DNA of 33,147 nucleotides from a virus: the IMG/VR virus record IMGVR_UViG_3300036766_000314, positions 1 through 33,147 of that record; one strand, 5' to 3'. Under the pieces are notes generated by a model. It did not search any database. It had not been told where the DNA came from and saw nothing but the letters and a program-made list of their open reading frames with translations. Of the stretch, positions 5,995-30,603 are shown piece after piece (position 1 is the stretch's first letter; each line of letters starts with the position of its first letter). Position numbers and translations under genes: made by a program.

Positions 5995-6007
5995 TTATAT
6001 ATTTTTA

Positions 6008-6042
6008 TTTGTATATATAAACATTTTACATATGGTTTTTTT
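6008..6042 (-). promoter_or_regulatory. Phage-type promoter for the tail-tip operon
   Basis: On the minus strand, A7-CCATATG is followed by TAAAATG and TTTATATATACAAAT, 13 bases before the ATG of the 986-aa gene. The promoter before the 151-aa gene (16296-16329) has the same A7-CCAT and core sequences, far more than chance similarity in non-coding DNA. Confidence 0.7.
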
Positions 6043-6049
6043 CAAATTA

Positions 6050-6081
6050 AAAACCCTTACACAGTTAAGTATAAGGGTTTT
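6050..6081 (-). terminator. Rho-independent terminator after the lipoprotein gene
   Basis: The stem AAAACCCTTA / TAAGGGTTTT encloses a 12-base loop directly after the lipoprotein stop codon. The A and T tracts on the two sides make it usable in both directions. Confidence 0.8.
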
Positions 6082-7294: not shown

Positions 7295-7309
7295 AATATT
7301 TTCTTTTTT

Positions 7310-7341
7310 ATTTATATATTAATATTTAAAAACTCCTTTTT
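7310..7341 (-). promoter_or_regulatory. Phage-type promoter for the 82-aa membrane protein
   Basis: On the minus strand: AAAAAGGAGTTTTTAAAT followed by ATTAATATATAAAT, with 24 bases from the A-tract to the end of the core, as at the other sites of this class. It lies 16 bases before the ATG, downstream of a host-type promoter. Confidence 0.6.
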
Positions 7342-8014: not shown

Positions 8015-8094
8015 TTGATTCTAAGACACTATTAATTTAATTTAATACATTGATACCAGATAACTATTAAAGTGGCTTAGAATTGATTTGAAGT
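8015..8094 (-). repeat. 80-bp dispersed repeat, copy 1
   Basis: It matches 11001-11079 at roughly nine of ten bases. Both copies start 5-6 bases after the stop of a short leftward gene and end upstream of the next gene. Each can fold with a stem of about ten bases (here CTAAGaCACT against AGTGgCTTAG, where the lower-case pair does not match) around a loop holding TTTAATACAT. A half copy is present at 8817-8836. Confidence 0.8.
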
Positions 8095-8099
8095 GGTTA

Positions 8100-8423
8100 C
8101 TAATTGATTTCTAAATTCATTTCCCTAATTAAAAATTCAATGAAAGATAAATCTTGTTGATCCTTAAACTCGTTAAGTAAGTTAGGTATGTTATTTTCTT
8201 CAATCACATTTTCTCTTAACCACCCTTTAATTTGATAGTAATCTATCCCAAGAATCTGTATAGTATTCATGATGTTATTATTGCTTAGGATTGAATATAA
8301 GACACTCAAAACACATTCAGTATACATTATATCATCTACTTTATAATTTAAGCATGTTAACGTTATTTTAACACATGTCTTAGCTTCTGTAAGTAATTGC
8401 TTTATTAAATTTAATTTTGTCAT
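8100..8423 (-). CDS. Hypothetical protein (107 aa)
   Basis: A helical, soluble-looking protein with four Cys in its first half (TCVKITLTC, TECVLSVL) and an acidic C-terminal half (EENNIPNLLNEF). No signal peptide. It is the first leftward gene next to the 1.2-kb non-coding region and has a clean phage-type promoter 12 bases upstream of its ATG. The short helix-rich form fits small phage proteins that bind host factors, but I do not recognise the family and no motif gives a function. Confidence 0.7.
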   Translation of the reverse strand: MTKLNLIKQLLTEAKTCVKITLTCLNYKVDDIMYTECVLSVLYSILSNNNIMNTIQILGIDYYQIKGWLRENVIEENNIPNLLNEFKDQQDLSFIEFLIREMNLEIN

Positions 8424-8434
8424 GACTTTTTTTA

Positions 8435-8465
8435 TTTATATATTAAAACTATAAACTGTGTTTTT
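8435..8465 (-). promoter_or_regulatory. Phage-type promoter for the 107-aa gene
   Basis: On the minus strand: AAAAACACAGTTTATAG then TTTTAATATATAAA, with the 24-base A-tract-to-core spacing. Its A-tract borders a decayed copy of the small-RNA hairpin element (8463-8498). Confidence 0.65.
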
Positions 8466-8498
8466 GAAGTTTTGGCTTGCCTTGGGGCTACCAACCTA
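8463..8498 (+). ncRNA. Decayed copy of the GC-rich hairpin element
   Basis: The sequence GAAGTTTTGGCTTGCC...TTGGGGCTACCAACC matches the plus-orientation element at 9321-9356, but only a TTGG/CCAA stem of four pairs survives and no terminator follows in the same direction. It is likely a remnant of duplication. Confidence 0.45.
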
Positions 8499-8508
8499 TT
8501 CATTAATT

Positions 8509-8624
8509 AAAAAAAGGGTGCATTCGTTAGTTAAATATATTAAATCGTTTGCACCTTTTTTTTAATTTAACTATAAAGAAGTGGGCAGCCCCAAAGGCAA
8601 GCCCCACTTCAAAACAAAAGATAA
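8509..8624 (-). ncRNA. Candidate small RNA, left inverted copy
   Basis: Read leftward: TTATCTTTTGTTTT, then a hairpin with stem GAAGTGGG / CCCACTTC (8578-8585 with 8603-8610) around a GC-rich loop (GCTTGCCTTTGGGGCTG), then CTTTATAG, then a terminator hairpin AAAAAAAGGTGCA / TGCACC with a T7 tail (8509-8563). The pairing is retained in the copy at 8633-8750, where both sides of the stem have changed together. The elements are strikingly GC-rich in a very AT-rich region. No ORF covers them. The loop of the terminator also contains a TTTAATATATTTAAC core resembling the phage promoter. Function unknown. Confidence 0.6.
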
Positions 8625-8632
8625 TCATATTT

Positions 8633-8750
8633 GGTCCTTTCTATAGTTAAATACATTAAATAGAATGGACCAAATTTAATTAATTTAATTAATCTACACT
8701 ATAAAGAAGTTGGCGGCCCCAAAGGCAAGCCCAACTTCAAAACAAAAGAT
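8633..8750 (-). ncRNA. Candidate small RNA, second leftward copy
   Basis: The hairpin stem GAAGTTGG / CCAACTTC (8706-8713 with 8731-8738) replaces the GAAGTGGG / CCCACTTC of its sister, a matching change on both sides. The flanks (TATAAA on one side, CAAAACAAAAGATAATCATATTT on the other, read on the plus strand) are conserved. Leftward it is followed by another hairpin, GGTCCATTCTAT / ATAGAAAGGACC (8633-8671), with one mismatch but no T-tract; the loop contains TTTAATGTATTTAACT. Confidence 0.55.
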
Positions 8751-8760
8751 AATCATATTT

Positions 8761-9010
8761 ACCCATTTAAGTACATTAAATAAATAAAGTATAGATAGCT
8801 ATCATTCTAGAAAGAAAGTGTCTTAGAATTAATTTAAACAATATCTATCTTGATTACTAACAACTAACTTAACAAACAAAAGAAATACAATATCTAGATT
8901 GTTCAAGTGAAGATAGAGTTTATTTTAGTGAATGTTTTAGATATTGTTGTGAGCTTGTCTCACTACACTTTCTTAAATAGTTAATAAAAATTATGACTAA
9001 AAAATAATTT
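8761..9010. other. Non-coding segment with short inverted motifs
   Basis: No ORF. ACAATATCT occurs at 8838-8846 and 8887-8895 and its inverse AGATATTGT at 8939-8947; ACAATATCTA (8887-8896) and TAGATATTGT (8938-8947) could form a 10-bp stem. GATAGCTATC (8794-8803) is a perfect palindrome. GTGAGcttgtCTCAC (8950-8964) is a small hairpin. These could be operator sites or part of a replication origin; nothing decides between them. Confidence 0.4.
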
Positions 9011-9014
9011 AACT

Positions 9015-9084
9015 AATAAAGTATGTATTGGTTTCAATCCTTCGTCATCCCTGCGGGAATCCTCTGATTTCACAGTACTTTATT
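9015..9084 (+). ncRNA. Candidate multi-branched RNA or DNA structure
   Basis: An outer stem AATAAAGTA / TACTTTATT of nine perfect pairs (9015-9023 with 9076-9084) closes a region with three small hairpins: ATTG-GTTT-CAAT (9027-9038), TCCC-TGC-GGGA (9048-9058) and CTG/CAG (9064-9075). A T-run follows on the plus strand. The inside is much more GC-rich than its surroundings. It is not a tRNA: the arms do not have tRNA sizes and there is no anticodon or T-loop in place. Confidence 0.4.
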
Positions 9085-9089
9085 TTTAG

Positions 9090-9293
9090 ATAACCTATTT
9101 CTTGTTTGTTTATGTTTTTGTTTTTAGTTAAAAAGGTATCAAGCAATATAATTAAGTAATTAAATGGTTTTATTCTAATTAGATTGTTTGATACCTTTTT
9201 TAAGCAATTTAAACGAAGTTAAGTTATTTAAATATAAACACTTATGATTGCTTGATACTTTTTATATAACCTATTTCTTGTTTGTTTATGTTT
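9090..9293. repeat. 28-bp direct repeat (9090-9117 and 9266-9293)
   Basis: ATAACCTATTTCTTGTTTG and the next nine bases (TTTATGTTT) are identical in both copies, 176 bases apart. They bracket the long terminator-like hairpin at 9130-9200, suggesting duplication of the segment between the structured element and the right small-RNA copy. Confidence 0.8.
9130..9200. terminator. Bidirectional terminator-like hairpin with an alternative partner
   Basis: The stem is AAAAAGGTATCAAGCAAT against ATTGTTTGATACCTTTTT, 18 pairs with one G-T wobble, around a 35-base AT-only loop apart from two G pairs. A- and T-tracts allow ending from both sides. GTATCAAGCAAT (9136-9147) also pairs perfectly with ATTGCTTGATAC at 9247-9258, so two folds compete. 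Confidence 0.6.
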
Positions 9294-9310
9294 AGGGTAT
9301 AATGAAAGAT

Positions 9311-9424
9311 TTATCTTTTGTTTTGAAGTGGGGCTTGCCTTGGGGCTGCCCACTTCTTTATAGTTTAATTAAAAAAAGGTGCAAACGATTTAATATATTT
9401 AACTAACGAATGCACCCTTTTTTT
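9311..9424 (+). ncRNA. Candidate small RNA, right inverted copy
   Basis: The plus-strand twin of 8509-8624: TTATCTTTTGTTTT, hairpin GAAGTGGG / CCCACTTC (9325-9332 with 9349-9356), CTTTATAG, then terminator AAAAAAAGGTGCA / TGCACC with T7 (9371-9424). It points towards the 240-aa gene but would end before that gene's own promoter. The Bacteroidota-like TTTATCTTTTG at 9310-9320 could be part of a promoter but has one T too many. Confidence 0.6.
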
Positions 9425-9479
9425 AATTTAAACAATTATCTAAAAATAATATATATGTAGTAAGTATATGATAATTTGG

Positions 9480-9512
9480 AAAAAACACGTTTTTTTCATT
9501 TAATATATAAAT
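9480..9512 (+). promoter_or_regulatory. Phage-type promoter for the 240-aa gene
   Basis: AAAAAACACG, a T-run, then CATTTAATATATAAAT, with the same 24-base spacing. This is the only plus-strand copy clearly tied to a gene, and leaves a leader of about 145 bases before the ATG. Confidence 0.7.
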
Positions 9513-9543
9513 TAGAATTTAAGACATGTTATATGTTTTATTT

Positions 9544-9640
9544 TATCTTGGTAAACCTACAATAAAGCGAGGGCTTAATTACCCCTCGCTAGTAGATGTT
9601 TTAAAAAGATAAAAGAATTCAAAATATATCTACCAAGATA
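9544..9640 (+). promoter_or_regulatory. Structured 5' leader of the 240-aa gene
   Basis: Three nested stems: TATCTTGGTA / TACCAAGATA (9544-9553 with 9631-9640, ten perfect pairs), CTAC / GTAG (9557-9560 with 9592-9595) and AGCGAGGG / CCCTCGCT (9566-9573 with 9583-9590). The structure ends about 22 bases before the ATG. It could be a protein-binding autoregulatory site or an RNA switch. No known riboswitch class is recognised. Confidence 0.55.
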
Positions 9641-9662
9641 TAAATAAAATAATTAAAATGAC

Positions 9663-10385
9663 ATGGACTATCAAAAGACCAATGAAAACTATTATGATAT
9701 AATAGACATCTTAACTTTAATGACTCAATTAAAATTAAAAACAGAATATAGTGATATAGTACAAGGATTTTTCAAACTTGTAGATTATGATATGGTTACT
9801 ATATATTTTAACAAAGATCACAAAATACCTGAACATAGATTAACTAAAGAATTTACTGAAATAATAAATAAATTAATATATTTAAATAAAGATATTACTG
9901 AATTACAAATAATTAGTTATATGTACTATGTTAACATGAAACACACCATAGCTAAAATGAAATTAAAATATTTTTTTACATTCGTTGAAACTGCAATAAA
10001 AAATATAAGAGAATATGGTTTAGATATTAAATTTGATAAAAGACATTATCTTTATCATAATCAAGGTGATTTAAATTACATAATAACTGAAAAAGAAAGA
10101 CAACAATTACAACCTAAAATACAAGGTTGGTTAAAAAGTAATTTAACTATAATAGAAATAAATAATGTTAAAGACGAGTTATACAAAAATAATTTAAAAA
10201 TAACAAATAAAAAAATATCTGAAATACTTAAATGTAGTGTTGATACAATTAAGAGACATAATAAGAAAAAAATAATTAATGTTGATGAAATGGAAATAAT
10301 GTTTAAAGAAGAATTATTAAAATTAAGAGAATTATATAAAAATGTTGATGATTTATATAAATTTGTTGAACAAGATTGGAATTAA
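9663..10385 (+). CDS. Helix-turn-helix protein on the opposite strand (240 aa)
   Basis: Lys-, Ile- and Asn-rich protein, mostly helical. Residues 179-200 (KITNKKISEILKCSVDTIKRH) form a convincing helix-turn-helix of the kind that reads DNA in regulators and replication initiators. The first 170 residues are unrecognised. It is one of only two rightward genes here, with its own phage-type promoter and a folded leader, and faces away from the leftward small genes across the hairpin-rich region. That setting suits a DNA-binding regulator or an initiator acting on the adjacent non-coding DNA. A second option is a homing-endonuclease partner, since a GIY-YIG fragment follows 20 bases later. Function inferred from the motif and position only. 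Confidence 0.75.
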   Translation: MDYQKTNENYYDIIDILTLMTQLKLKTEYSDIVQGFFKLVDYDMVTIYFNKDHKIPEHRLTKEFTEIINKLIYLNKDITELQIISYMYYVNMKHTIAKMKLKYFFTFVETAIKNIREYGLDIKFDKRHYLYHNQGDLNYIITEKERQQLQPKIQGWLKSNLTIIEINNVKDELYKNNLKITNKKISEILKCSVDTIKRHNKKKIINVDEMEIMFKEELLKLRELYKNVDDLYKFVEQDWN

Positions 10386-10405: not shown

Positions 10406-10537
10406 ATGGTAGAAAATATAATTGGAATATACAAAATAGAAAATATTGAAACTGGTATAGTATATATTGGGTCAAGTACAAATATTAAAAGTAGATGGAA
10501 AACACATAGACATAGTTTAAATATGTATATGAAATAA
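10406..10537 (+). pseudogene. Truncated GIY-YIG endonuclease (43 aa)
   Basis: The frame starts MVENIIGIYKIENIETG and continues IVYIGSSTNIKSRWKTHRH. It carries the GIY and YIG motifs and the R..W...H segment that open GIY-YIG nuclease domains. It stops at 43 residues; the domain normally needs about 90, including a catalytic Glu that is absent. Its stop codon lies in the terminator stem, so the 3' part was probably lost when this gene end was rearranged. It is very unlikely to be an active nuclease. Confidence 0.75.
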
Positions 10538-11000: not shown

Positions 11001-11079
11001 TTGATTTAAGACACTATTAATTTAATTTAATACATAGATACCAGTTTACTATTAAAGTGTCTTAGAATTGATTTAAAGT
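11001..11079 (-). repeat. 79-bp dispersed repeat, copy 2
   Basis: The partner of 8015-8094. Here the stem is perfect (TAAGACACT with AGTGTCTTA), while copy 1 has one mismatch. It lies between the 59-aa gene, 5 bases after its stop, and the endolysin start, so it forms the endolysin's leader or promoter region. Confidence 0.8.
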
Positions 11080-13998: not shown

Positions 13999-14570
13999 TA
14001 ATATTTTTTATAAAATTTCATTCTATTAATTTCACCATTGTTAATATCATTTGGAAATACAATAGGTGATTTATATGCTTTAAAATCAGGTCTTTCATCC
14101 CTTATATGAGATGTATCGGTACAATTCAAGTATGAATCATATATTGTTTGGTTGTCTAATAAGAAATTAACTGTTTTTTTCACCCAATATTCTGCTTTAT
14201 TCTTATATTCTTCCCTTATCATGTTAAATATTTTCAAATCTGTTTGACTTGAATATTCACTTGATTGTTGTGTTACACCTTTTGGCGTTATTTTAAAGTT
14301 AATATGTGGTAAACATTCATAAATAGAATTATATAATAGAATATTCGTAACGAAATTATCAATTAATAGTTCTTGATCAGCAGTTGTTGAACCTGTTCTA
14401 ACTGCAAATTTTAATTCTTCTAGTAATTTCTGCCCAATAGTTTGACTTAATAGACCTTGTGTTGATTCTAGTATAGAAAAATTAATAAACTTTTCTTCAA
14501 TATCAGATAATACAACTGAATTATCTTTAATATATTGGACATCAATAAAATACACATCATTCTTAGACAT
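13998..14570 (-). CDS. Probable head-tail connector (adaptor) protein (190 aa)
   Basis: Mostly helical: residues 1-60 and 70-100 helical, then a mid-section (PHINFKITPKGV) and an acidic C-terminal helix with Tyr (AEYWVKKTVNFLLDNQTIYDSYL). Gene size and place directly after the portal fit the connector/adaptor proteins (Ad1 type) that bind the portal ring. Its ATG overlaps the portal stop by one base (TAATG) and its stop overlaps the holin start. No strong signature, so the role is inferred from position. Confidence 0.6.
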   Translation of the reverse strand: MSKNDVYFIDVQYIKDNSVVLSDIEEKFINFSILESTQGLLSQTIGQKLLEELKFAVRTGSTTADQELLIDNFVTNILLYNSIYECLPHINFKITPKGVTQQSSEYSSQTDLKIFNMIREEYKNKAEYWVKKTVNFLLDNQTIYDSYLNCTDTSHIRDERPDFKAYKSPIVFPNDINNGEINRMKFYKKY

Positions 14571-15829
14571 TATGCGATAGGATTATTTTCATTATCAGTT
14601 GATGTAGTATCATTCTGAATAGTTTGGTCTGCTGTTTCAATAATAGGTAAACCATTAATGGTATCACCAGTTGGTACTTCTGAATAACCTACTTGTTCTC
14701 TCAATTCATTCAATGTTAAAATCTCTTTTAATAAATTTTCTGAAAAATAATTAGTTGTTGGTTTATTGTTAATAATAGATATCTGTTCTAACCCATTGAT
14801 AAACAATAACTTATTAATTTTAATTAAAATAGTTTCTTGATCTTTAACAATAACATTATTAAAATATACAGCATGTGCATTTAAGATATCTTCGCTAGTG
14901 CCAATAGAAAAACCATCTTGTGTAACATTTGCTAAGATTGGACTAATTTGGTGTGTTGATAAGATATTATTAACAACTGATTTATTCAAATCAGCAAACA
15001 TTAAGTGATTATTATTTGAATCAATGACATCAATAACTGGTTTTTCTTCGATGTTATCAACTATATTAACAATGAATTTACCTGCATTATCACTTCCTAC
15101 GAAGTTATTTTTTAAATCTCTTAAAATATCTTGTCTTTCTTCTTCACTTGCATTCGGTGCCTGTAAAGTGACTGCAAGGCTTGGTGTCATACCATTTTCA
15201 ACATTACTTAAATGAAATTTAGATATCTTTCTTGAAAGTTCAATGTAATTAATAGCACCAGAATACATTGGCATAGGGTAATATTTTGCCCCAGGCATAT
15301 AATCAAATACATAATATAATTGGGTCTTATTCTTATTATCTTTTGTGCTGAATGCTGGAACTTCAATTGCTTTCTTGTTTGTGTAAGTACACCATTCATC
15401 TGCCAAATAATAAGATTCAACAATACCCATATCATTTTTGATACCGCTTCTAACTTTTGAAAAATCTTGATGTATAATTTCAGAAATAGCATCACCTTTT
15501 TTATTCCAAATTATTTGTAAAGCAAAACCTTGGAATATAGTGTAATCAATAACTACCTTCTTAATTACATCCTCTAATGTTTCACCTTGACTATTTATAG
15601 TTGAAATGAAATTTAAAGTCTTTTTGTTTACTTTATCAATCCCACTTCCGTAAATTAAATTCTGTCTAGTTTTTAGTATAGCAGAATGAATACCACAATC
15701 AGTGAAAAGTTCTACCAAATATTGTGGATAATTATTCTTATCACCATATTCAACAATTTTCTTTTGTTTATTTTCTTTGAAACTTGGTTTTTCTTCCATT
15801 TCAAAATTCATCTTTATTGTTTTACTCAT
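14570..15829 (-). CDS. Portal protein
   Basis: 419 residues, usual for a portal of this class. Key features are VEYGDKNNYPQYLVELF (27-43), the HSAILKTRQNLIYGSG helix (48-63) that precedes the clip/wing in phage portals, a central strand-rich region with DYMPGAKYYPMP (174-185), and the long C-terminal helix with NHLMFADLNKSVVN and SIGTSEDILNAHAVYFNN, typical of Bacteroidota phage portals. It forms the dodecamer at one head vertex through which DNA enters. Its ATG overlaps the previous gene's TGA in an ATGA. It comes well after the capsid gene instead of right after the terminase, an unusual order. Confidence 0.85.
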   Translation of the reverse strand: MSKTIKMNFEMEEKPSFKENKQKKIVEYGDKNNYPQYLVELFTDCGIHSAILKTRQNLIYGSGIDKVNKKTLNFISTINSQGETLEDVIKKVVIDYTIFQGFALQIIWNKKGDAISEIIHQDFSKVRSGIKNDMGIVESYYLADEWCTYTNKKAIEVPAFSTKDNKNKTQLYYVFDYMPGAKYYPMPMYSGAINYIELSRKISKFHLSNVENGMTPSLAVTLQAPNASEEERQDILRDLKNNFVGSDNAGKFIVNIVDNIEEKPVIDVIDSNNNHLMFADLNKSVVNNILSTHQISPILANVTQDGFSIGTSEDILNAHAVYFNNVIVKDQETILIKINKLLFINGLEQISIINNKPTTNYFSENLLKEILTLNELREQVGYSEVPTGDTINGLPIIETADQTIQNDTTSTDNENNPIA

Positions 15830-16281: not shown

Positions 16282-16295
16282 TAATTTACTTTTTA

Positions 16296-16329
16296 TTTGT
16301 ATATATAAACATTCTCAGATGGTTTTTTT
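16296..16329 (-). promoter_or_regulatory. Phage-type promoter for the portal unit
   Basis: On the minus strand: A7-CCATCTG, AGAATG, then TTTATATATACAAAT, 15 bases before the ATG. Nearly the same as 6008-6042. It follows directly on the terminator at 16356-16391. Confidence 0.7.
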
Positions 16330-16355
16330 CCATATTGATGATAATTTATAATATA

Positions 16356-16979: not shown

Positions 16980-17903
16980 TTAGAAATTTGTTGTGATAAG
17001 TCCTTCTTGTGGTGTAATTTGAACACCGATTTTAAATTTAGTATGAAACAAAACTTGTTTTTCATAGAAATCTGCTTTCAAATACAATTTAGAACCATCA
17101 ACTGAATCGTCAGTACCTAAGAAAATATCTGCTGGTCTTGTGATAATAACTTTATTTGAATCACCAATTAAACCGTTGTTTAAAATGATAGTCAAATTAG
17201 GGAAAGCTGGATATTTAATACCTGCACCTGTTGCAGTAGCAGATTGGTTATAATCACCTAATGTACCATAACTTTGTTTCATTGCAATAACGAAAGCAGT
17301 ATAAACAGCAGGAGAAACGATAGCATTCATTGCTTCATATCTAACTTCGTCAGGGAATGCAACAACCATAGAATCAATAACAGACAAAACATTAGCAGAA
17401 GTGATAGTAACACCAGTCACTGCAAGAACTTTATTTCGACCAGTTGCACCAGAAATGATAGTAACCAAACCATTAATCAAATGACCTGAACTAACTTTAC
17501 CGATCATAACTAAATCTTCAACTGAACGATTAATACGAGCAACTTCATCAGCCATGAAAATAGGAGCAAATTCACCAAGACTTGCATCTCTCATTTGTTT
17601 GTATTTGTGTGCAAGATATGTACCTTGTAATTCATCAACACAGAAAGTTTTATCAACTTCAACTTGTGCTACAGTTAAGATTTTTTGATCAAAAGTAGTT
17701 ACACCAGATGGTGACCATGAACAACTTGCAGCCTTTAAGAATGTTTCAGATGTGAAAGTAGGCAAAGCCAAACTTAATCCAACCACATTAGGGATAATCG
17801 TAAATAACTGTTCGAAAGAAGTAGGAACGATTAAATTAGAAATAATATCCATTCTTTGCTCATCAACAAAAGAAGATAGAGCTGAAATATTAAATGTACT
17901 CAT
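16980..17903 (-). CDS. Major capsid protein (HK97 fold)
   Basis: 307 residues with more balanced composition than its neighbours, as expected for an abundant protein. The N-terminal segment (FNISALSSFVDEQRMDI) leads into the DKTFCVDELQGTYLAHKYKQMRD stretch (about 85-107) and helix EFAPIFMADEVARINRSVEDLV, the E-loop/spine region of HK97-type capsids. The A-domain contains MNAIVSPAVYTAFVIAMKQSYG and the C-terminus ends in the strand pair VLFHTKFKIGVQITPQEGLITT. A scaffold-like gene lies 10 bases upstream and a prohead protease is encoded at 22055-22690. It is followed by its own terminator. Confidence 0.85.
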   Translation of the reverse strand: MSTFNISALSSFVDEQRMDIISNLIVPTSFEQLFTIIPNVVGLSLALPTFTSETFLKAASCSWSPSGVTTFDQKILTVAQVEVDKTFCVDELQGTYLAHKYKQMRDASLGEFAPIFMADEVARINRSVEDLVMIGKVSSGHLINGLVTIISGATGRNKVLAVTGVTITSANVLSVIDSMVVAFPDEVRYEAMNAIVSPAVYTAFVIAMKQSYGTLGDYNQSATATGAGIKYPAFPNLTIILNNGLIGDSNKVIITRPADIFLGTDDSVDGSKLYLKADFYEKQVLFHTKFKIGVQITPQEGLITTNF

Positions 17904-19219: not shown

Positions 19220-20434
19220 TTATATTTTATAGGACTTAAATCCTGTCTTTTTTTGTTCAATTCCTAACTTTTCCATGAAAATATACCTGATTGCATCTAT
19301 TAAGTGATTGTGTTTATCTATTGGAACATTTAGAACATTACCATTTATATCTGTTTTGAACTGATAGTTATTAAATTCCATTAATAAATTAACACTTCTG
19401 AAGTATATATGTATTTTATATCTTTTCATTGTGTTAATGCCATAGACAATCGAACTAACTCTATTATCACCACTTACTTTTTTGACACCTTTAATGTTAT
19501 GTCTCTTTGATTGTAATTCAGCAATCAATCTAGGTTCAGCAGAATCAGCAATTATATCTTCATTCTTTTCACTTATTTCGGTTAATACTTTATCTATGTC
19601 AGTTGTAGTCATACCTTTAGAATAACATCTTTCAATTAAATAAATATTTTCACCTTTCTTATATAATTCAACTATTGCAGTAGGGTCAGATACAAATCCA
19701 AAGTCAATACCAAATGCTCGCCATTCATAATCTTCAAAGTCACTAAATTTAGTAAATGTTTTAAAATTATCAAATATAGCCCCACGAAGTTGACCATATT
19801 GACCTTCACCGTAAACAAGATAAGAATCCATATCTATTTCTTTCAAGTATTCAATTTCACGGACTGATTCTTCAGTTAAGAAAGGATTGTCTCTGAAAGT
19901 AGATACTATAATATCAACATCATCCCTTTGTTCTTCAATAGTTTTAATCCATGAATCACTTGAACTTGGATTGAATGATATAAACATTTGATTAATTTTA
20001 TTATCATTACTTGTACATGTTAAACGAAGCATAAATTGTTTAAAGAATTCATATTCAATACCATCAGCTTCTTCTAACCAGAAATAATTAGATTGAAGTC
20101 CTCTAATCTTCTGGGGGTCATCACAACCAATGAAATCAATCGTAGTCTTCGTTGATTTACAAATAAAATAACATTCAGATTTATTGTGTAGGAATAATGA
20201 ATAAAGATTATGCATAATTAAGAAATCAATGAATTCTTTATAGATAGTCTTCTTAGCAATTGCTAATGATTCACGTGCAATAATTATTCGTTTATTTTTT
20301 TCAGTTAATGCCCGAATAACAAATAATTGAATTAAGCTATATGTTTTGGAACTACGAGATCCACCCCTATTTATAACTATTCTTTTAGTTGATTCATTAT
20401 TTCTTTTAAATACTTCTGTACAAGTTAATTCCAT
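19220..20434 (-). CDS. terL: Terminase large subunit
   Basis: 404 residues, the normal size for the Terminase_3/PBSX-type family. Walker A is GGSRSSKT (24-31); Walker B is NYFWLEEADG (115-124, with Glu120/121 as catalytic acids); the coupling motif SFNP is at 152-155. The nuclease domain shows GIDFGFVSDPTA (Asp243), ADSAEPRLI (Asp296) and HNHLIDAIRY near 375-385, the three acidic sites that hold metal. It is the ATP-driven DNA translocase and headful or site-specific nuclease at the portal. The small-subunit-like gene ends one base upstream of its ATG, so the two are coupled. Confidence 0.95.
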   Translation of the reverse strand: MELTCTEVFKRNNESTKRIVINRGGSRSSKTYSLIQLFVIRALTEKNKRIIIARESLAIAKKTIYKEFIDFLIMHNLYSLFLHNKSECYFICKSTKTTIDFIGCDDPQKIRGLQSNYFWLEEADGIEYEFFKQFMLRLTCTSNDNKINQMFISFNPSSSDSWIKTIEEQRDDVDIIVSTFRDNPFLTEESVREIEYLKEIDMDSYLVYGEGQYGQLRGAIFDNFKTFTKFSDFEDYEWRAFGIDFGFVSDPTAIVELYKKGENIYLIERCYSKGMTTTDIDKVLTEISEKNEDIIADSAEPRLIAELQSKRHNIKGVKKVSGDNRVSSIVYGINTMKRYKIHIYFRSVNLLMEFNNYQFKTDINGNVLNVPIDKHNHLIDAIRYIFMEKLGIEQKKTGFKSYKI

Positions 20435-20863: not shown

Positions 20864-21143
20864 TATACATTAATTTTAATCTATTATATACTGGTGATAT
20901 AACTGATGCGCATGAATTGCACCACCCAAGAACTGGTGATATAAGAATTTCATGAAAGTATCTTAATTTATCTGCATCATTACTTGAACCAGATGCTCTA
21001 CCTTGTAGTCTATCAAAGAATGCAACCATTTCTTTTAATGTTTCAGTTTTTAAATCAAATACAATAGGTTCTGATACTTGTTCTTCTATACCTTGTATAA
21101 ATTCTTCTGTTGAAATAATCTTAGTCTCTTTTTTCTTTGCCAT
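20835..21143 (-). CDS. Hypothetical protein in the packaging cassette (102 aa)
   Basis: Basic N-terminus (MAKKKETK), then a helical body (ETLKEMVAFFDRLQGRASG) and a C-terminal part with two Cys (LGWCNSCASVISPVY). It overlaps the sigma-like gene by 23 bases and the TerS-like gene by 29 bases, so all three are co-translated. The family is not recognised. A DNA-binding or packaging accessory role would fit the place but no motif proves it. Confidence 0.65.
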   Translation of the reverse strand: MAKKKETKIISTEEFIQGIEEQVSEPIVFDLKTETLKEMVAFFDRLQGRASGSSNDADKLRYFHEILISPVLGWCNSCASVISPVYNRLKLMYIEYVKENRK

Positions 21144-21696
21144 TTAGTTTTTTCTTTATTTTTAATTTGATATTTTTAATTGTGTATTTTGCAACCCAAA
21201 TATTACCAATATTGTATTTTTCACTTAATTGTTTATAAGTTAATTTATTGATGTAATGTTCATTGAATATTAGTAAATCAATACCTTTTAAGGTTGAATT
21301 AACATACGATATTACAGCATTATACTTTTCATCAATTAGTGGATCATACTCATTATCAATTACTTCTATATTGTCTATGTTGAAACCAAAGTTTTTTTTT
21401 AATTTGTCAGTTGAACTAGATAAATAGTTGAAACAACATCTATAAAAGAAACTCCTAAAATCATCTAAATATAATTCTGATAATTTTTTATAGTCATGTA
21501 TTCTTATAAAAATGTCATGTAACATGTCAATTGATTCAATTGGGATATTCTTTTGATATTCTGTCTTCAGATCTTCATTTTTATCTATATTGAAACTTAA
21601 TAATTTATAGTTAAATTTATCAGATAGAGAAATTACTATTTTTAAAAGGTCATTATATTCAATAGAAAATAAATTATTCAATTCTTCTTTTGTCAT
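21121..21696 (-). CDS. Sigma-70/ECF-like factor, phage-encoded (191 aa)
   Basis: Residues 57-92 (DMLHDIFIRIHDYKKLSELY, ending FFYRCCFNYL) resemble sigma region 2 of ECF factors. Residues 138-181 (GIDLLIFNEHYINKLTYKQL, followed by SEKYNIGNIWVAKYTIKN) form a clear region 4 helix-turn-helix with its usual Lys-rich end. The two are joined by a linker of about 45 residues, as in ECF sigmas (normally 170-200 aa). It is encoded in the packaging cassette, where sigma-like proteins also occur in other Bacteroidota phages. It could direct host polymerase to the phage-type promoters seen through this window, or alternatively act as a DNA-recognition partner of terminase. The region 2 match is weaker than region 4. 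Confidence 0.65.
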   Translation of the reverse strand: MTKEELNNLFSIEYNDLLKIVISLSDKFNYKLLSFNIDKNEDLKTEYQKNIPIESIDMLHDIFIRIHDYKKLSELYLDDFRSFFYRCCFNYLSSSTDKLKKNFGFNIDNIEVIDNEYDPLIDEKYNAVISYVNSTLKGIDLLIFNEHYINKLTYKQLSEKYNIGNIWVAKYTIKNIKLKIKKKLNGKEKRD

Positions 21697-22691: not shown

Positions 22692-25600
22692 TTATATTAA
22701 CGCATTTTTTTGTATCACATTTACATTCTTTTGAGAATCTGTGATTTGTTTCTCTTGTATATATACATTCTTTGAATCTGACTTTGATAAACTATCATTA
22801 ACAGTTGAAACATTAGAACTAACTTTATTAATAGATTGTGCTAATTTATCTACAGTTTGTGATATTTCTAATATTATAGTATTTTGTGTTCCATCAACAA
22901 TTGGTCCAATAAATTTATGTGAAAAAGGTATATTACCACTATTCAAATTTTCCAGTATAGGTCTAAACTTTTGTGTTGAATTTTTATTTATAATAAATTC
23001 ACCCCCTTCAGCCTTAATATCAACACCACCATTTGAACCTTGATGCGATTCACCTTCAATGATACCACCTTTTTCATAAACAGGTACAAATTTCTGTTGT
23101 TTAATTGTTTGTATTTGAACGGCGGCCATTGCCGCACCTGCAATACCACCAATAATTAATCCAGGAAGACCACCTTGTGCAAATGATTGTGCAATACCTA
23201 ATGCTGTTGACATTATAACTTGTGTTATTTGATTTTTTTGTTTTGCATCAAATTGTTTTTTTTCTTCATCTGCTCTTAGTTTTGCATATTTTGTTCTAAT
23301 GTTTTCTTGTGCAATTGAATTACCTTCTGTATCTTTTAATTCACGATTCATTTTAGCATCCTGTTTAGCATTAAACATTTGCATTTCTGCTTCCATTTTC
23401 TTATTTTCGTATTCAACATACATATCGAAACCTTGTTTTGCAAAATCAGCATATACTACTGCTAATTTACCATATCTTTTCATTTGTAAATCGAATAAAA
23501 ATTTATCTTGTTTATCTTCATCCATTAGATCAAAGGTATTTCTATCTTCTAAATCTTTACCTATTAAATTTGTTTTATCCCCTGAAAATTTATCTATTTC
23601 ATTTTGACTTTTTTTGAAATCTGTATATCCAATTTTATTTTGAACATATCCTAACACACCACCACTATTAATATTTTCTTTAGTTCTAACAGCCCCTAAT
23701 AATTTATCTACTTCTGAAAGTTTTGCTTTATTCTCTTCAGTCACAGGTAATTTAGATAATGATTCTTTTAATTCTGTTAAATCTTTTGTCATTTGTTTTC
23801 CAACTGCATTATACATATCTATTGCATATTGCTCATTAAATTTTGCTAAATTATCATAAGACACAGCAGTTTTATTCATAGTATTCTTTATACCATTTCT
23901 TAATTCTGTTGAAAATTTATATAAACTTGCATCAGTATCTCCCATCATTTTAGTTTTACTTCTATTAAAATCTAAACTTTCTGCTAATATTTTCTGATTA
24001 GAATTAATAACATATCCTAACTCTTTATTATATGATGATGCATAAACTTCCTTTGAACTAACATTACCATATTTATCTGTTGGTTGATTAGATATATTTG
24101 AAATAGACCTACGACTTTTAGACATTTCTATCATTTGACCTGCATAAACTTTAGCGGACTCATTAGTTAAATCATACATTTCTTGTAATTCTTTAACGAT
24201 TCGATTGAAAATCATACCTGTTGTATCCTCAATCTTATTCATAGAATCCTCAGGTGAATGTGTTTTAGAATAATTTTCTAATAATTTAAAAGAATTATCA
24301 TTAAATTTCATTATATCAGTTAATCCTTTATTTATATCATCAACACTCATCTTAGTGTTTATATCTTTTAATGCTTCAATATCCTTTTGAATTAGATTAG
24401 CACCTTCTTTAAATGATCCAGTAGTATATTTAATAGGTAACATAGAACCACTTTGAATTGCTTTATATGTATCTCTAATTAACTTTTCTTCTTCTGCTTG
24501 TCTAATAGTCTCATTCTTTTCTTTACTAATTAACAATCTTCTAATGTTATATTGTTGGATTAAATTTTCTTGTTTAATATAAGTATCACCTAAAGATGTT
24601 AATGCATCCATTTCAGATTTAATATTATCTTGTTGTAATTTCATGAAATCTGTATCCCATAACTTACGATACCAAACTTCTTTTTGACTTTCAGTTACAA
24701 CCTTTTCTTTACCTAACCATAAACTATTATCAGCATTAATAGTAGGTGCATTACCTACACCAAATTTTTCATAAGATGATCTATTTAATATCTCTCTATT
24801 AGTTTCATACATAGGATTAGACTTATCAAATACTTGTTGTTTTAAATATAATAATTTTTGATATTCTAATGCTTTAACATCATTCTCATAAGTCTTACCA
24901 TTAATACCATTAGATATTTCAATTGAATTAGTTAACATTTGAATATGTTTATCTAATCTATCCATATTCATTATTTCAATTTGCATATTATCATTTTCAC
25001 GGTATTGTGCTTTTTGCATCTTATTCATACCAGAATAACCATTTGTAGTTCTATCTAATTTTTGTTTTTCAATAATTATTTTTTTATAATCTTCAAATTC
25101 TTTATCACTTAAAACCTTTGATTGAGAATACATAGTTATCTTTTGTTGAAGTTTTAATCTTTCATACTTCAAATTAATTTCTATTTTTCTTTGTTCATAA
25201 TTAATTGTACCTTCTACATCTTCTTTAAATGATTTATCTAACATTGCACGTTCATATTGACGTTGTTGCTCTAAAGTAGCATTACCATATTCAACCATTA
25301 CTGCTAAGTTAGATTCCATTTGCTGTTTTTTCTTAGTTTGATATTTCGCAGTTTCTTCAGTTAGCTTACTAAATTCATCTTGTAGTGCATCAAATTTACT
25401 TACTGGATTTGTAGATGTATCATATTCAGTATAGTCTTTGAACTTATCTAATTGTTGATTCAATCTATCTATGTCAGTAAAGAATTGTTTTGGCATCCAG
25501 CCAATTGTCAACTTATTAAGAAATTTTGTTGTTGGGTCTGCTTTATTTATTTTATCAACCTTAGATGAGATATTATCTAATTGATTTCCCAAATCATCAA

Positions 25601-26990
25601 TAAATTTAGGTGTATTACTATATATCGTAGAAACATCAACAGTTGTTAATCCTAATTGTTTTCTAGTATTAACATCTAATTGCTTTAATATCGCATTATA
25701 TTCAATAGCATCCTTCTTCATTCTTTCTAAATTAGTATCTCTTTCCTTTTTAACAGATTCTAATTCAGCTATTTTAGATTCTTGTTTTAGTATTTCCTCT
25801 AAAACTTTAGAATATGCACCAGCATTTTTTGGAACATCTTTAAACATTTCAGAATACTTAGATTCAATTAATTTCATTATATCTAACTTTTTATCTAGAT
25901 CAGCTTCATTTAGTGAAAACAATAAAGATTGTGCCTCGCCTACATTTTTATAATCACTTTCATTTTTAATTAATTCACCAATATTTACTTTTGGTGGTTT
26001 AGAAAATATATTATATAATGCAACTGCACCTGCCGTTGCTAATGCTATACCAGCAATCCATGGTGCAAAAGGATTAATTGTTGCTAACCATTTCATCACA
26101 CCACCTAAACCTTCGATAATAGTTATAGTACCATCTATTGCTTTACCCAATGCCATAGCATTTGCAATCTTCTTTAACATTTCTTTAGATTCATCAGATT
26201 CATCACCTGCTAATAGAATATATGCTTCGGACAAATCGCCAAACCCTTGCGCTAATTTCTTTGAACCTTCTAATGCTTTCATTCGAATTTCATTAGTCTG
26301 TTCGGTTGTTTGATTTAAACTTCGTAAATGTTCTTCTTGTTCTTGAATAGTACTACTCATCGTGTTAAATTCAGTAGAACCGACCGCCATAGATTGTAAT
26401 TCAAGTTTGTTTTGTTTAATTTCGTCTTGCAATGAATTTAAACTTGTTATATTTGTTTGAACACCTTGATCAAAAGCACCTTGATAATTACCAACACTTC
26501 TTTGGAAGTCACCATAACTTTGTTCTAAATCTTTAATTTCTTGATTTAATTCAGCAGTATTAGTTAATAATTCTCTTCCTATATCTGAATCACGGTCAGT
26601 TGCAGACATTTGTGCAAACTGTTTTTTCAGTTCAGATAAATTATTCCTCATTGCAATTAAAGATGTTTGATCAACTTGAACATTCATCTTAGTCGCAACT
26701 TTCATTTGATCTTGAACTTTCTTAATTTGTGTATTCAAATTCTTAAATGCTTCACCACCTAAATCAGTTTTACCTAATTCTTGTTGTAAACCTTTAAGTT
26801 TTGCTTTCAAACTATTTAAAGTATTTTCCATCTCTACTTGAATACCATCATTAACATCCTTACCGACTGCTTTACCTAATTTAGAATCTTGTTGTATCTT
26901 CTTTAATTTAGATTCAACATCGGTTAATCCTTGTACAAAATTAGAAGTATCTAATTCGATCTTAATTATATATTTTTCTTCATCTTCCAT
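22692..26990 (-). CDS. Tail tape measure protein
   Basis: 1432 residues, by far the longest gene. The start (ELDTSNFVQGLTDVESKLKKI) is the usual opening of Bacteroidota tape measure proteins. Long coiled coils fill residues 20-260 and 390-1250. A hydrophobic region lies around 290-325 (ATINPFAPWIAGIALATAG), and a Gly-rich membrane-like stretch at about 1275-1300 (GGLPGLIIGGIAGAAMAA) is followed by the KGGIIEGESHQGSNGG segment typical of these proteins. Length sets tail length; at about 1.5 angstrom per residue this predicts a tail near 200 nm. The first gene with clear tail function after the fibres, with an NlpC/P60-like gene 4 bases before it. Confidence 0.9.
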   Translation of the reverse strand: MEDEEKYIIKIELDTSNFVQGLTDVESKLKKIQQDSKLGKAVGKDVNDGIQVEMENTLNSLKAKLKGLQQELGKTDLGGEAFKNLNTQIKKVQDQMKVATKMNVQVDQTSLIAMRNNLSELKKQFAQMSATDRDSDIGRELLTNTAELNQEIKDLEQSYGDFQRSVGNYQGAFDQGVQTNITSLNSLQDEIKQNKLELQSMAVGSTEFNTMSSTIQEQEEHLRSLNQTTEQTNEIRMKALEGSKKLAQGFGDLSEAYILLAGDESDESKEMLKKIANAMALGKAIDGTITIIEGLGGVMKWLATINPFAPWIAGIALATAGAVALYNIFSKPPKVNIGELIKNESDYKNVGEAQSLLFSLNEADLDKKLDIMKLIESKYSEMFKDVPKNAGAYSKVLEEILKQESKIAELESVKKERDTNLERMKKDAIEYNAILKQLDVNTRKQLGLTTVDVSTIYSNTPKFIDDLGNQLDNISSKVDKINKADPTTKFLNKLTIGWMPKQFFTDIDRLNQQLDKFKDYTEYDTSTNPVSKFDALQDEFSKLTEETAKYQTKKKQQMESNLAVMVEYGNATLEQQRQYERAMLDKSFKEDVEGTINYEQRKIEINLKYERLKLQQKITMYSQSKVLSDKEFEDYKKIIIEKQKLDRTTNGYSGMNKMQKAQYRENDNMQIEIMNMDRLDKHIQMLTNSIEISNGINGKTYENDVKALEYQKLLYLKQQVFDKSNPMYETNREILNRSSYEKFGVGNAPTINADNSLWLGKEKVVTESQKEVWYRKLWDTDFMKLQQDNIKSEMDALTSLGDTYIKQENLIQQYNIRRLLISKEKNETIRQAEEEKLIRDTYKAIQSGSMLPIKYTTGSFKEGANLIQKDIEALKDINTKMSVDDINKGLTDIMKFNDNSFKLLENYSKTHSPEDSMNKIEDTTGMIFNRIVKELQEMYDLTNESAKVYAGQMIEMSKSRRSISNISNQPTDKYGNVSSKEVYASSYNKELGYVINSNQKILAESLDFNRSKTKMMGDTDASLYKFSTELRNGIKNTMNKTAVSYDNLAKFNEQYAIDMYNAVGKQMTKDLTELKESLSKLPVTEENKAKLSEVDKLLGAVRTKENINSGGVLGYVQNKIGYTDFKKSQNEIDKFSGDKTNLIGKDLEDRNTFDLMDEDKQDKFLFDLQMKRYGKLAVVYADFAKQGFDMYVEYENKKMEAEMQMFNAKQDAKMNRELKDTEGNSIAQENIRTKYAKLRADEEKKQFDAKQKNQITQVIMSTALGIAQSFAQGGLPGLIIGGIAGAAMAAVQIQTIKQQKFVPVYEKGGIIEGESHQGSNGGVDIKAEGGEFIINKNSTQKFRPILENLNSGNIPFSHKFIGPIVDGTQNTIILEISQTVDKLAQSINKVSSNVSTVNDSLSKSDSKNVYIQEKQITDSQKNVNVIQKNALI

Positions 26991-28184: not shown

Positions 28185-28199
28185 TTATCTATTTTTATT

Positions 28200-28230
28200 T
28201 TATATATTAAATAATTAATATGTGTTTTTT
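28200..28230 (-). promoter_or_regulatory. Phage-type promoter for the tail unit
   Basis: On the minus strand: AAAAAACACATATTAAT then TATTTAATATATA, with the class's 24-base spacing. It lies between the fibre gene stop at 28234 and the 223-aa gene's ATG. Confidence 0.65.
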
Positions 28231-28233
28231 CTA

Positions 28234-30603
28234 TTATGTTATTATTGTGCCACCATTATTATTAATAGTGTTAGTTGGTGTATATCCATTCTTATTTAAT
28301 GTACCACCTGAATTAACATTAACAATAGATGTTCCTAATGCATTATTACCTATAATTAATATAGTACCTTCATTAATATCTATTGTTCCAGTTAAAGTAT
28401 TAGTTCCTGATAATGTTTGAATACCTGTTCCTGATTTAATAATTGATACAGCACCACTGATAACAGAATCTGCTGTATAATTAGAACTATTATTTATAGT
28501 TAGTGTTGCTGAACCTGTTGTTACATCAACTTTAACACCTGTACTTATACCTTTTATAGTTTGATCAAATGCTGATGTGTTCGCCATATTACTCAATCTT
28601 AATATACTACCTGCTGTACCAATAATAATACCTGTTGGTGATAATGTATTTAATGCACCACAATAAACAAATCCACTTGAATTAGCAATATTTAATGTAC
28701 CATAAGTATTTGCAGTATTACTAAATTCTATTCTTGCTGAATCTAATGTTTGAAGTTGCCCTGTTGATAATGATATCTGCCCTGTAACTTTACCATAACT
28801 ACTACCACCCCTTAACACAAATGCTGGTGTTACTGTTCCTAATACTGAAAATCCTATATTACCTGAAATTATACATGGTGTGGATGATCCACCTGCAAAA
28901 GCAATTGATGATTGACCATTATTTGATGTGTTATCTACAGTTACATTACCTGATATTGTAGAACTTGCACCTAATGAAATAGTTGCTCTATAACTTGAAC
29001 CATAACCTCTAATCATAGTTATATTATTAGAAATAGTTAAACCTGATGAAAACTGTATGCTATTATTAAACATGTTAGTACCATAAATAGATATATCACC
29101 ATAACCAAATGCTCTACTTGTATTTGCAAATATTGAAGTAACATTAGCACTTGGTTTTATTGAAGTATTACCACTGTATGTATTATTACCATTGATGGTT
29201 AATTGTCCGCTACTTGTATAGTTAAAATTACCTGTACCACTAATGATACCTGATAGTGTTTGATTTGTTGAACTATTAAATTCGAATGTACCATTGTTTA
29301 TAATATTACCACTGTATGTTGTACCATTAAATGTTGCACCACTACTAAGTTTAAATGTTCCTTGATTAATTGTTGTTGTACCATTATATGTATTTCCTGA
29401 ATTATTTAGTGTTAGTGTTGATGTACCTGATTTTACTAACATACCTGTTGCACCACCCAATATACCACTTAATATTTGTTCACTTGAACTTAACCATTTA
29501 AACACATTATTTGTACCATTAAAATTTATATTACCAACATAATTAGCTGTAGTTCCACTACCTAAACTTGAACTACCTTTAAATATTAAAGTTGAACCTA
29601 AACCATACATTATAAGATTAGAAGTGTAACCACTTGACTGACTTGTTATAGCAAGAGAACCACCATTTATAATACCGATACTTGGATTTAAACCCCTATC
29701 TAATAATTCACCATTAATCGTTAAATCTCCTGTTGAATTTAATGTACCAGCATATGCTGAAAACAAAGTAATGTATTGACCAGGATATATTTTAATATTA
29801 GAATCTATAATTGTACCACTCGCACCTGCATTAATAAATACATGATTCATATTACCATCATACCCATGTAATCTAGCATAACCTGTTGAACCTGACATTC
29901 TTATTATTGTTGGGTTATCAATAACGCATATAGCATTTGCTGAACAATTCCATAAAACACCACTATTTAAATAGATCCCTGATGTTGAACCTGTACCATT
30001 ACCATAACAAACAATATAGCCTTTTGATGCACTTCCACCGACATTACCTTGATTATTAGTTGTATTTAATAATAATGTTGAATTTTTATTAACATAAATA
30101 TAATCACCAAAACTTGCTTTAAATAGAGAGTAATCTATTTTTACATTACCTGTTGTAAATGGGCTACCGTTACTTCCAACATATAAATTACCAGTCACTC
30201 CTGTTGGATTACCACCTAACGTCAAATAACCATTCCCTAAGACAGTTAAACCTGTTGTTGATACAAGTTCACTATTTATTGTTGCCGATTGATTACAGTA
30301 GATATATGGTGTATTCTTATTGATTGTTCCACCACTTATATTAAATGTTCCAACTGCGGTTGAATTAAATGTAATATCATTAACTGTTGGATTAGTTGTA
30401 AATCCATTCATAGTTATTGTACCTGCTGTTATAGCATAATTACTTGGAAATATTAAATTTTTATTATTAATGTATGCAGTAGTAGTTTGACCACTTGTTA
30501 ATGACCAAAACTTACTACCACTATCCCATATTGAACCATTATCATTCCATTGTAAATAACTAATTAAAGTTGATGGATTTATACTTGAATTATATTTTAT
30601 CAT
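28234..30603 (-). CDS. Beta-helix fibre with autotransporter-type repeats (789 aa)
   Basis: Almost wholly Gly, Asn, Ser and Thr. Repeats such as LTINGNNTYSGNTSI, LTLNNSGNTYNGTTTINQGT, LSGTNTLTGTIDINEG and IISGTGNFNYTSSG (from about residue 390 on) match the autotransporter-associated beta-strand (PATR) repeat, a right-handed beta-helix rung normally found in secreted bacterial adhesins. The N-terminus (MIKYNSSINPSTLISYLQWN) may attach to the tail. There is no signal peptide and no autotransporter barrel, so it is a phage structural protein or fibre using this fold. It follows another fibre 19 bases downstream of that gene's stop. Confidence 0.7.
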   Translation of the reverse strand: MIKYNSSINPSTLISYLQWNDNGSIWDSGSKFWSLTSGQTTTAYINNKNLIFPSNYAITAGTITMNGFTTNPTVNDITFNSTAVGTFNISGGTINKNTPYIYCNQSATINSELVSTTGLTVLGNGYLTLGGNPTGVTGNLYVGSNGSPFTTGNVKIDYSLFKASFGDYIYVNKNSTLLLNTTNNQGNVGGSASKGYIVCYGNGTGSTSGIYLNSGVLWNCSANAICVIDNPTIIRMSGSTGYARLHGYDGNMNHVFINAGASGTIIDSNIKIYPGQYITLFSAYAGTLNSTGDLTINGELLDRGLNPSIGIINGGSLAITSQSSGYTSNLIMYGLGSTLIFKGSSSLGSGTTANYVGNINFNGTNNVFKWLSSSEQILSGILGGATGMLVKSGTSTLTLNNSGNTYNGTTTINQGTFKLSSGATFNGTTYSGNIINNGTFEFNSSTNQTLSGIISGTGNFNYTSSGQLTINGNNTYSGNTSIKPSANVTSIFANTSRAFGYGDISIYGTNMFNNSIQFSSGLTISNNITMIRGYGSSYRATISLGASSTISGNVTVDNTSNNGQSSIAFAGGSSTPCIISGNIGFSVLGTVTPAFVLRGGSSYGKVTGQISLSTGQLQTLDSARIEFSNTANTYGTLNIANSSGFVYCGALNTLSPTGIIIGTAGSILRLSNMANTSAFDQTIKGISTGVKVDVTTGSATLTINNSSNYTADSVISGAVSIIKSGTGIQTLSGTNTLTGTIDINEGTILIIGNNALGTSIVNVNSGGTLNKNGYTPTNTINNNGGTIIT

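Follow-up and report, generated by a model that had tools for sequence, protein, structure and literature searches.

The window, here the whole stretch of DNA that was analysed, is a virus record of 33,147 bases with 27% GC. It encodes a tailed-phage structural module, on the minus strand almost throughout, including the following genes:

14570-15829: portal
16980-17903: capsid candidate, assigned from gene order
19220-20434: terminase large subunit
22692-26990: tape measure

The best phage matches of the terminase are Bacteroides phages (approximately 33% identity) and that of the portal and capsid candidate is Nonlabens phage P12024 (approximately 27%), so the host is probably a member of the Bacteroidetes. 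Among IMG/VR terminases, the closest of the matches listed are approximately 40-45% identical, with a maximum of approximately 45% to the relatives aligned, and, with portal and capsid candidates at approximately 27% to the nearest named phage, this phage is distant from well-studied ones. A 789-aa predicted protein (28234-30603), adjoining repeat-rich fibre-like genes, contains PATR (passenger-associated-transport) repeats (Pfam E 2e-11).

An unusually long gene-free stretch of 1,239 bp (8424-9662) separates two divergent genes, 8100-8423 on the minus strand and 9663-10385 on the plus strand, and holds no ORF of 60 or more amino acids. Within this gap lie three intact copies of a structured unit and a fourth, decayed copy; the first-pass annotation had placed four related elements, one of them decayed, in a gene-free region of about 1.2 kb, and inspection of the sequence together with a repeat search confirms both their positions and the gap. 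In each unit a linker joins a GC-rich imperfect hairpin, hereafter A, to another hairpin, B, and A points toward B in all four copies:

8463-8498, plus strand: decayed hairpin A (hairpin approximately 8468-8498), facing hairpin B of unit 2 from the opposite side
8505-8624, minus strand: unit 2, with hairpin A at 8578-8610 (arms GAAGTGGG/CCCACTTC), a linker and hairpin B, the terminator, at 8517-8555, with T-runs on both sides
8633-8752, minus strand: unit 3, with hairpin A at 8706-8738 (arms GAAGTTGG/CCAACTTC, a changed stem pair), a longer linker and hairpin B at 8633-8671, without a T-run
8753-9310: core of the gap, lying between the divergent units and holding neither a gene nor an ORF of 60 or more amino acids
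9311-9428, plus strand: unit 1, with hairpin A at 9325-9356 (arms GAAGTGGG/CCCACTTC), a linker and hairpin B, the terminator, at 9378-9416, with a T-run

The main pair, units 1 and 2, is separated by 687 bp and, as the first-pass annotation had it, the two are directed away from each other, unit 1 outward on the plus strand and unit 2 outward on the minus strand. Unit 3 lies in tandem with unit 2 and upstream of it, and the decayed copy (from 8463, plus strand) and unit 2 (8624-8505, minus strand) converge on one terminator, 8517-8555.

Hairpin A reads GAAGTGGG-GCTT-GCC-loop-GGC-TG-CCCACTTC, with 61-64% GC, and is predicted to fold into an 8-bp stem, an asymmetric internal loop and a 3-bp apical stem. 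The letters of the loop and the internal loop are kept between copies, and hairpin A is conserved more strongly than the linker and B. When up to 3 mismatches are allowed, the window contains its core 4 times, where 0.11 occurrences would be expected. None of 200 shuffles folds as well as the intact units (z of -2.9 to -3.9 as RNA and -4.8 to -6.2 as DNA); the decayed copy, taken alone, folds no better than shuffles. A covariance model built from the three intact copies recovers these with E values of 1e-22 to 1e-23; the decayed copy follows at 4e-5 and the next match in the window at 0.03. Small ORFs overlap the units, and we rejected a coding reading: no frame is retained between copies, and a 1-nt difference in apical-loop length between near-identical copies shifts all frames, which makes the units unlikely to be coding.

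Units 1 and 2 are 97.5% identical over 120 columns in inverted orientation, a further inverted match spans 64 nt, and the pair reads as a recent or homogenised inverted duplicate. Their differences are confined to the apical loop, the linker and an A-run, leaving the stems unaffected. Among 145 sequences totalling 1.41 Mb, namely the window plus 144 loci of related phages, the window alone has an inverted repeat of at least 40 nt at E 1e-6. At this identity the pair provides no independent covariation, and what covariation there is comes from unit 3. Compared with unit 2, it carries 3 changes in the 63-nt block formed by A and its flanks, two of which exchange G-C for U-A and so compensate each other; divergence is much greater in its linker and in B, the latter with two compensated pairs. 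For the earlier claim that the two sides of the stem change together between copies there are three doubly changed pairs (1 in A, 2 in B), all of them from unit 3, and 28 of 500 shuffles reach that number. Matched stem changes can in principle be good evidence of structure; here three of them in a single divergent copy are suggestive, not decisive, and cannot distinguish RNA from DNA hairpins.

Hairpin B takes two forms. At 8517-8555 and 9378-9416, a GGTGCA/TGCACC stem encloses a partly paired 27-nt loop and is flanked on both sides by T-runs, so that a G+C-containing stem followed by a T-run, the form of an intrinsic (Rho-independent) terminator, is present on both strands and each of the two is predicted to be a bidirectional terminator. 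At 8633-8671, the stem is GGTCC/GGACC with no T-run, and unit 3 (8752-8633) would therefore have no termination of its own. The description of two copies as followed by a textbook terminator holds for the GGTGCA stem and the T-runs, but the 27-nt loop is unusually long (a standard terminator scan, covering short loops only, does not list either site), the terminators are bidirectional, and one of them is shared by the decayed copy. Both sit just upstream of a promoter-like motif that recurs ahead of several genes of this phage and consists of GAAAAAACAC or a variant, a spacer and then TTTAATATATAAAT or TTTATATATACAAAT:

2587-2615, 6002-6048, 7304-7341, 8428-8465, 9479-9515, 16290-16336 and 28192-28231: promoter-like motif sites, upstream of genes
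8428-8465, minus strand: putative phage-type promoter, just past the unit 2 terminator and upstream of gene 8100-8423
9479-9515, plus strand: putative phage-type promoter, just past the unit 1 terminator and upstream of gene 9663-10385

Immediately ahead of the units there is no phage-type motif. Unit 1 is preceded by a TATAAT (9298-9303), but this hexamer occurs 124 times in the window; the conserved flank TATCTTTTG differs by a single base from the Bacteroidetes -7 box TAnnTTTG, and that box turns up here about once per kb per strand. Elsewhere in the window, gene 21121-21696 has a weak match to transcription regulators and might encode a sigma-like factor for the recurrent motif.

The gap and its surroundings contain further structured elements. 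A 73-nt hairpin element (AAGACACT ... AGTGTCTTA) flanks the whole region, at 8022-8094 and 11007-11079 (93% identity, 3 kb apart), and part of it is also found at 8791-8847. Inside the gap there are a 35-nt direct repeat (9083-9117 and 9259-9293, 97%), a terminator-like hairpin (9130-9200) and a long hairpin (8887-8949). A GC-richer segment at 9015-9084 reads GTTTCAATCCTTCGTCATCCCTGCGGGAATCCTCTGATTTCAC and lies between AATAAAGTA and TACTTTATT; it ends in GTTTCAATCC, as some CRISPR repeats do, but we rejected a CRISPR-repeat reading of the element (9024-9085) after a scan of 395 genomes of the class gave four short matches and no array. The leader of gene 9663-10385 (9534-9650) has a strong branched fold with a TATCTTGGTA/TACCAAGATA closing stem and a GC-rich inner hairpin (9566-9590), with a folding z of -5.1 over 9515-9662 and no Rfam match; the AlphaFold model of the protein itself is unusable (pLDDT 34). 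Beyond this gene, a 43-aa ORF (10406-10537) matches only the start of the GIY-YIG endonuclease domain (Pfam E 9e-8) and is a remnant.

The units have so far been found in this phage alone. No Rfam 15 family matches at the gathering threshold, in line with the earlier statement that no described RNA has this core, and the sub-threshold matches, mostly to microRNA models, were taken as chance; our literature search found no description of the hairpin A/B element. The core pattern has at least 119 scattered matches in IMG/VR, and among the matches listed the stem of A is found only in the window and its own loci; stricter patterns gave no matches or matches inside genes. A half pattern (stem and core) gave 11 IMG/VR loci, 0 of 11 with ACTTC at the 3′ side, three being one HEARO-like element. 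A DNA similarity search of phages and plasmids returned chance-level matches only. Covariance models, which the first-pass annotation had proposed for a search of related phages, recover all four copies in the window. In 100 related phage records and 13 genomes they gave weak matches, none of those in the phage records credible; the matches inspected were driven by the AT-rich flank or fell on a terminase gene. The same models gave 16 weak matches in 399 Flavobacteriaceae genomes, none credible and the best six mutually unlike, and the exact core pattern occurs in 0 of the 399; the phage and genome collections searched may leave out near neighbours of the record.

Several known systems invite comparison. 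GibS of Bacteroides thetaiotaomicron is an intergenic small RNA with its own intrinsic terminator (PMC7366714) and, like such Bacteroidetes small RNAs, the units are intergenic, with a predicted length of about 100 nt and a 3′ terminator hairpin; unlike them, the phage units are multi-copy in one gap, carry a GC-rich imperfect hairpin and are known from sequence alone. RNA anti-CRISPRs (Racrs) are solitary CRISPR-repeat units in phages (PMC10651486). A short, structured, phage-encoded non-coding RNA is likewise conceivable here, but a scan of 399 Flavobacteriaceae genomes, outside which the true host may lie, did not show hairpin A as a repeat. A third comparison, with HEARO (the IscB-associated RNA, RF02033), stems from a 19-20-nt string, TTTTGAAGT(G)GGGGCTTGCC, that hairpin A has in common with a HEARO-like element of three viral contigs from other phages, L357, L359 and L361. 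There the string pairs with an upstream arm, whereas in the units it pairs with a downstream arm; since the pattern searched for included the string and the two folds differ, we treated it as chance. Unit 1 has no RF02033 match up to E 10, and the window's HNH gene (2195-2620) belongs to the NUMOD4/homing type and lies 6 kb away, so that the RF02033 match with adjacent iscB expected of a HEARO/IscB locus is not found. The HEARO-like sequence itself (L361 3874-3938, also in L359 and L357) scores 23 of 83 bits, below the Rfam gathering score, and no HNH or IscB gene was recognised by eye among the ORFs listed for L361. Finally, neither gene beside the gap, 8100-8423 or 9663-10385, has the toxin match (Pfam and PHROGs, up to E 10) expected beside a type III toxin-antitoxin RNA, a repeat RNA that precedes a ToxN-type toxin gene.

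We favour, at about an even chance, the reading that the phage transcribes the units into short non-coding RNAs, divergently and with terminators closing each side. The small-RNA proposal of the first-pass annotation is plausible and the best single explanation, with transcription and function both read from the DNA. The fixed A-to-B orientation, the strong folding and the terminator form of B ahead of promoters on both sides argue for it, as do the conservation of A and its flanks in unit 3 while linker and B diverged and the loss of any coding frame. Against it count the origin of the paired changes in one divergent copy, with shuffles that do equally well, the promoter candidates at the units being of kinds common by chance, and the failure of every collection searched to yield a relative. 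Transcripts would start in the gene-free core and proceed outward both ways, as the terminator at each end of the core suggests: the rightward one through unit 1 to the terminator near 9424, the leftward one through the tandem units 3 and then 2, stopping at the terminator near 8509. The GC-rich hairpin A, presumably the active part, would be present in each RNA, whose end would lie at B; B would close the unit and shield the next phage promoter. The role of the units is much less certain than their transcription. The likeliest role, though at low odds, is that of a trans-acting structured RNA in which hairpin A binds a host or phage protein, with B closing and shielding as above; the retention of the letters in both loops and the presence of several copies speak for it. 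At similarly low odds the units may belong to a new family of structured small RNAs in a phage of Bacteroidetes type, comprising a homogenised divergent pair and a tandem copy, in which A would act in trans, for example as a multi-copy protein decoy or counter-defence RNA.

That A and B together form a compound cis-acting terminator or insulator against stray transcription between the divergent promoters, with any RNA a by-product, is possible, if on the unlikely side. B is bidirectional and on each side stands just before a phage-type promoter, and the order terminator, promoter, gene recurs in this phage at 6079/6043 and 16389/16330, so that B looks like one of its ordinary boundary terminators; A, read toward B, is itself followed by a weak U-rich stretch, CUUUAUAGUU. 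Yet an A-like hairpin is absent from the remaining terminators of this phage (the model of A finds its four copies only), the conservation of the loop and flanks of A exceeds what a terminator stem needs, and unit 3 lacks a T-run.

We regard as distinctly unlikely an origin at the DNA level without RNA function, whether through inverted duplication mediated by a palindrome, through gene conversion or through a miniature mobile element of the REPIN or MITE type. The near-identity and length of the inverted copies, including the second 64-nt match, fit such an origin, as do the good folding of the hairpins as DNA on both strands and the further duplicated pieces (9083-9117/9259-9293 and 8022-8094/11007-11079). 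Against this, the copies are confined to one gap with none elsewhere in the window, no such element appears in the hosts or phages searched, and units 1 and 2 differ only outside the stems. REPINs are REP doublets in inverted orientation (PMC3116915), and the units resemble them as GC-rich imperfect hairpins between genes, some of them inverted. Unlike the dispersed paired REP hairpins with a RAYT transposase that define REPINs, the units number only four and share one gap, with a terminator-type hairpin after each, and the main pair stands 687 bp apart and does not form one hairpin; no RAYT or other transposase was recognised among the window proteins and ORFs searched, in a record that may be incomplete. 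A replication origin or other DNA-structural site, with hairpins serving initiation or strand exchange, would suit a long AT-rich gene-free stretch with many inverted repeats beside gene 9663-10385, which has a weak helix-turn-helix match, but is very improbable, as the searches run with window proteins brought up no recognisable replication gene and the skew profile, dominated by gene orientation, has no clear turning point.

For RNA mapping the gap offers a compact target, with several other unexplained structured elements beside the units. If transcribed, the units would represent a family of phage small RNAs with no known relatives; if not, they would be an instructive example of how terminators can multiply and invert between promoters that diverge.
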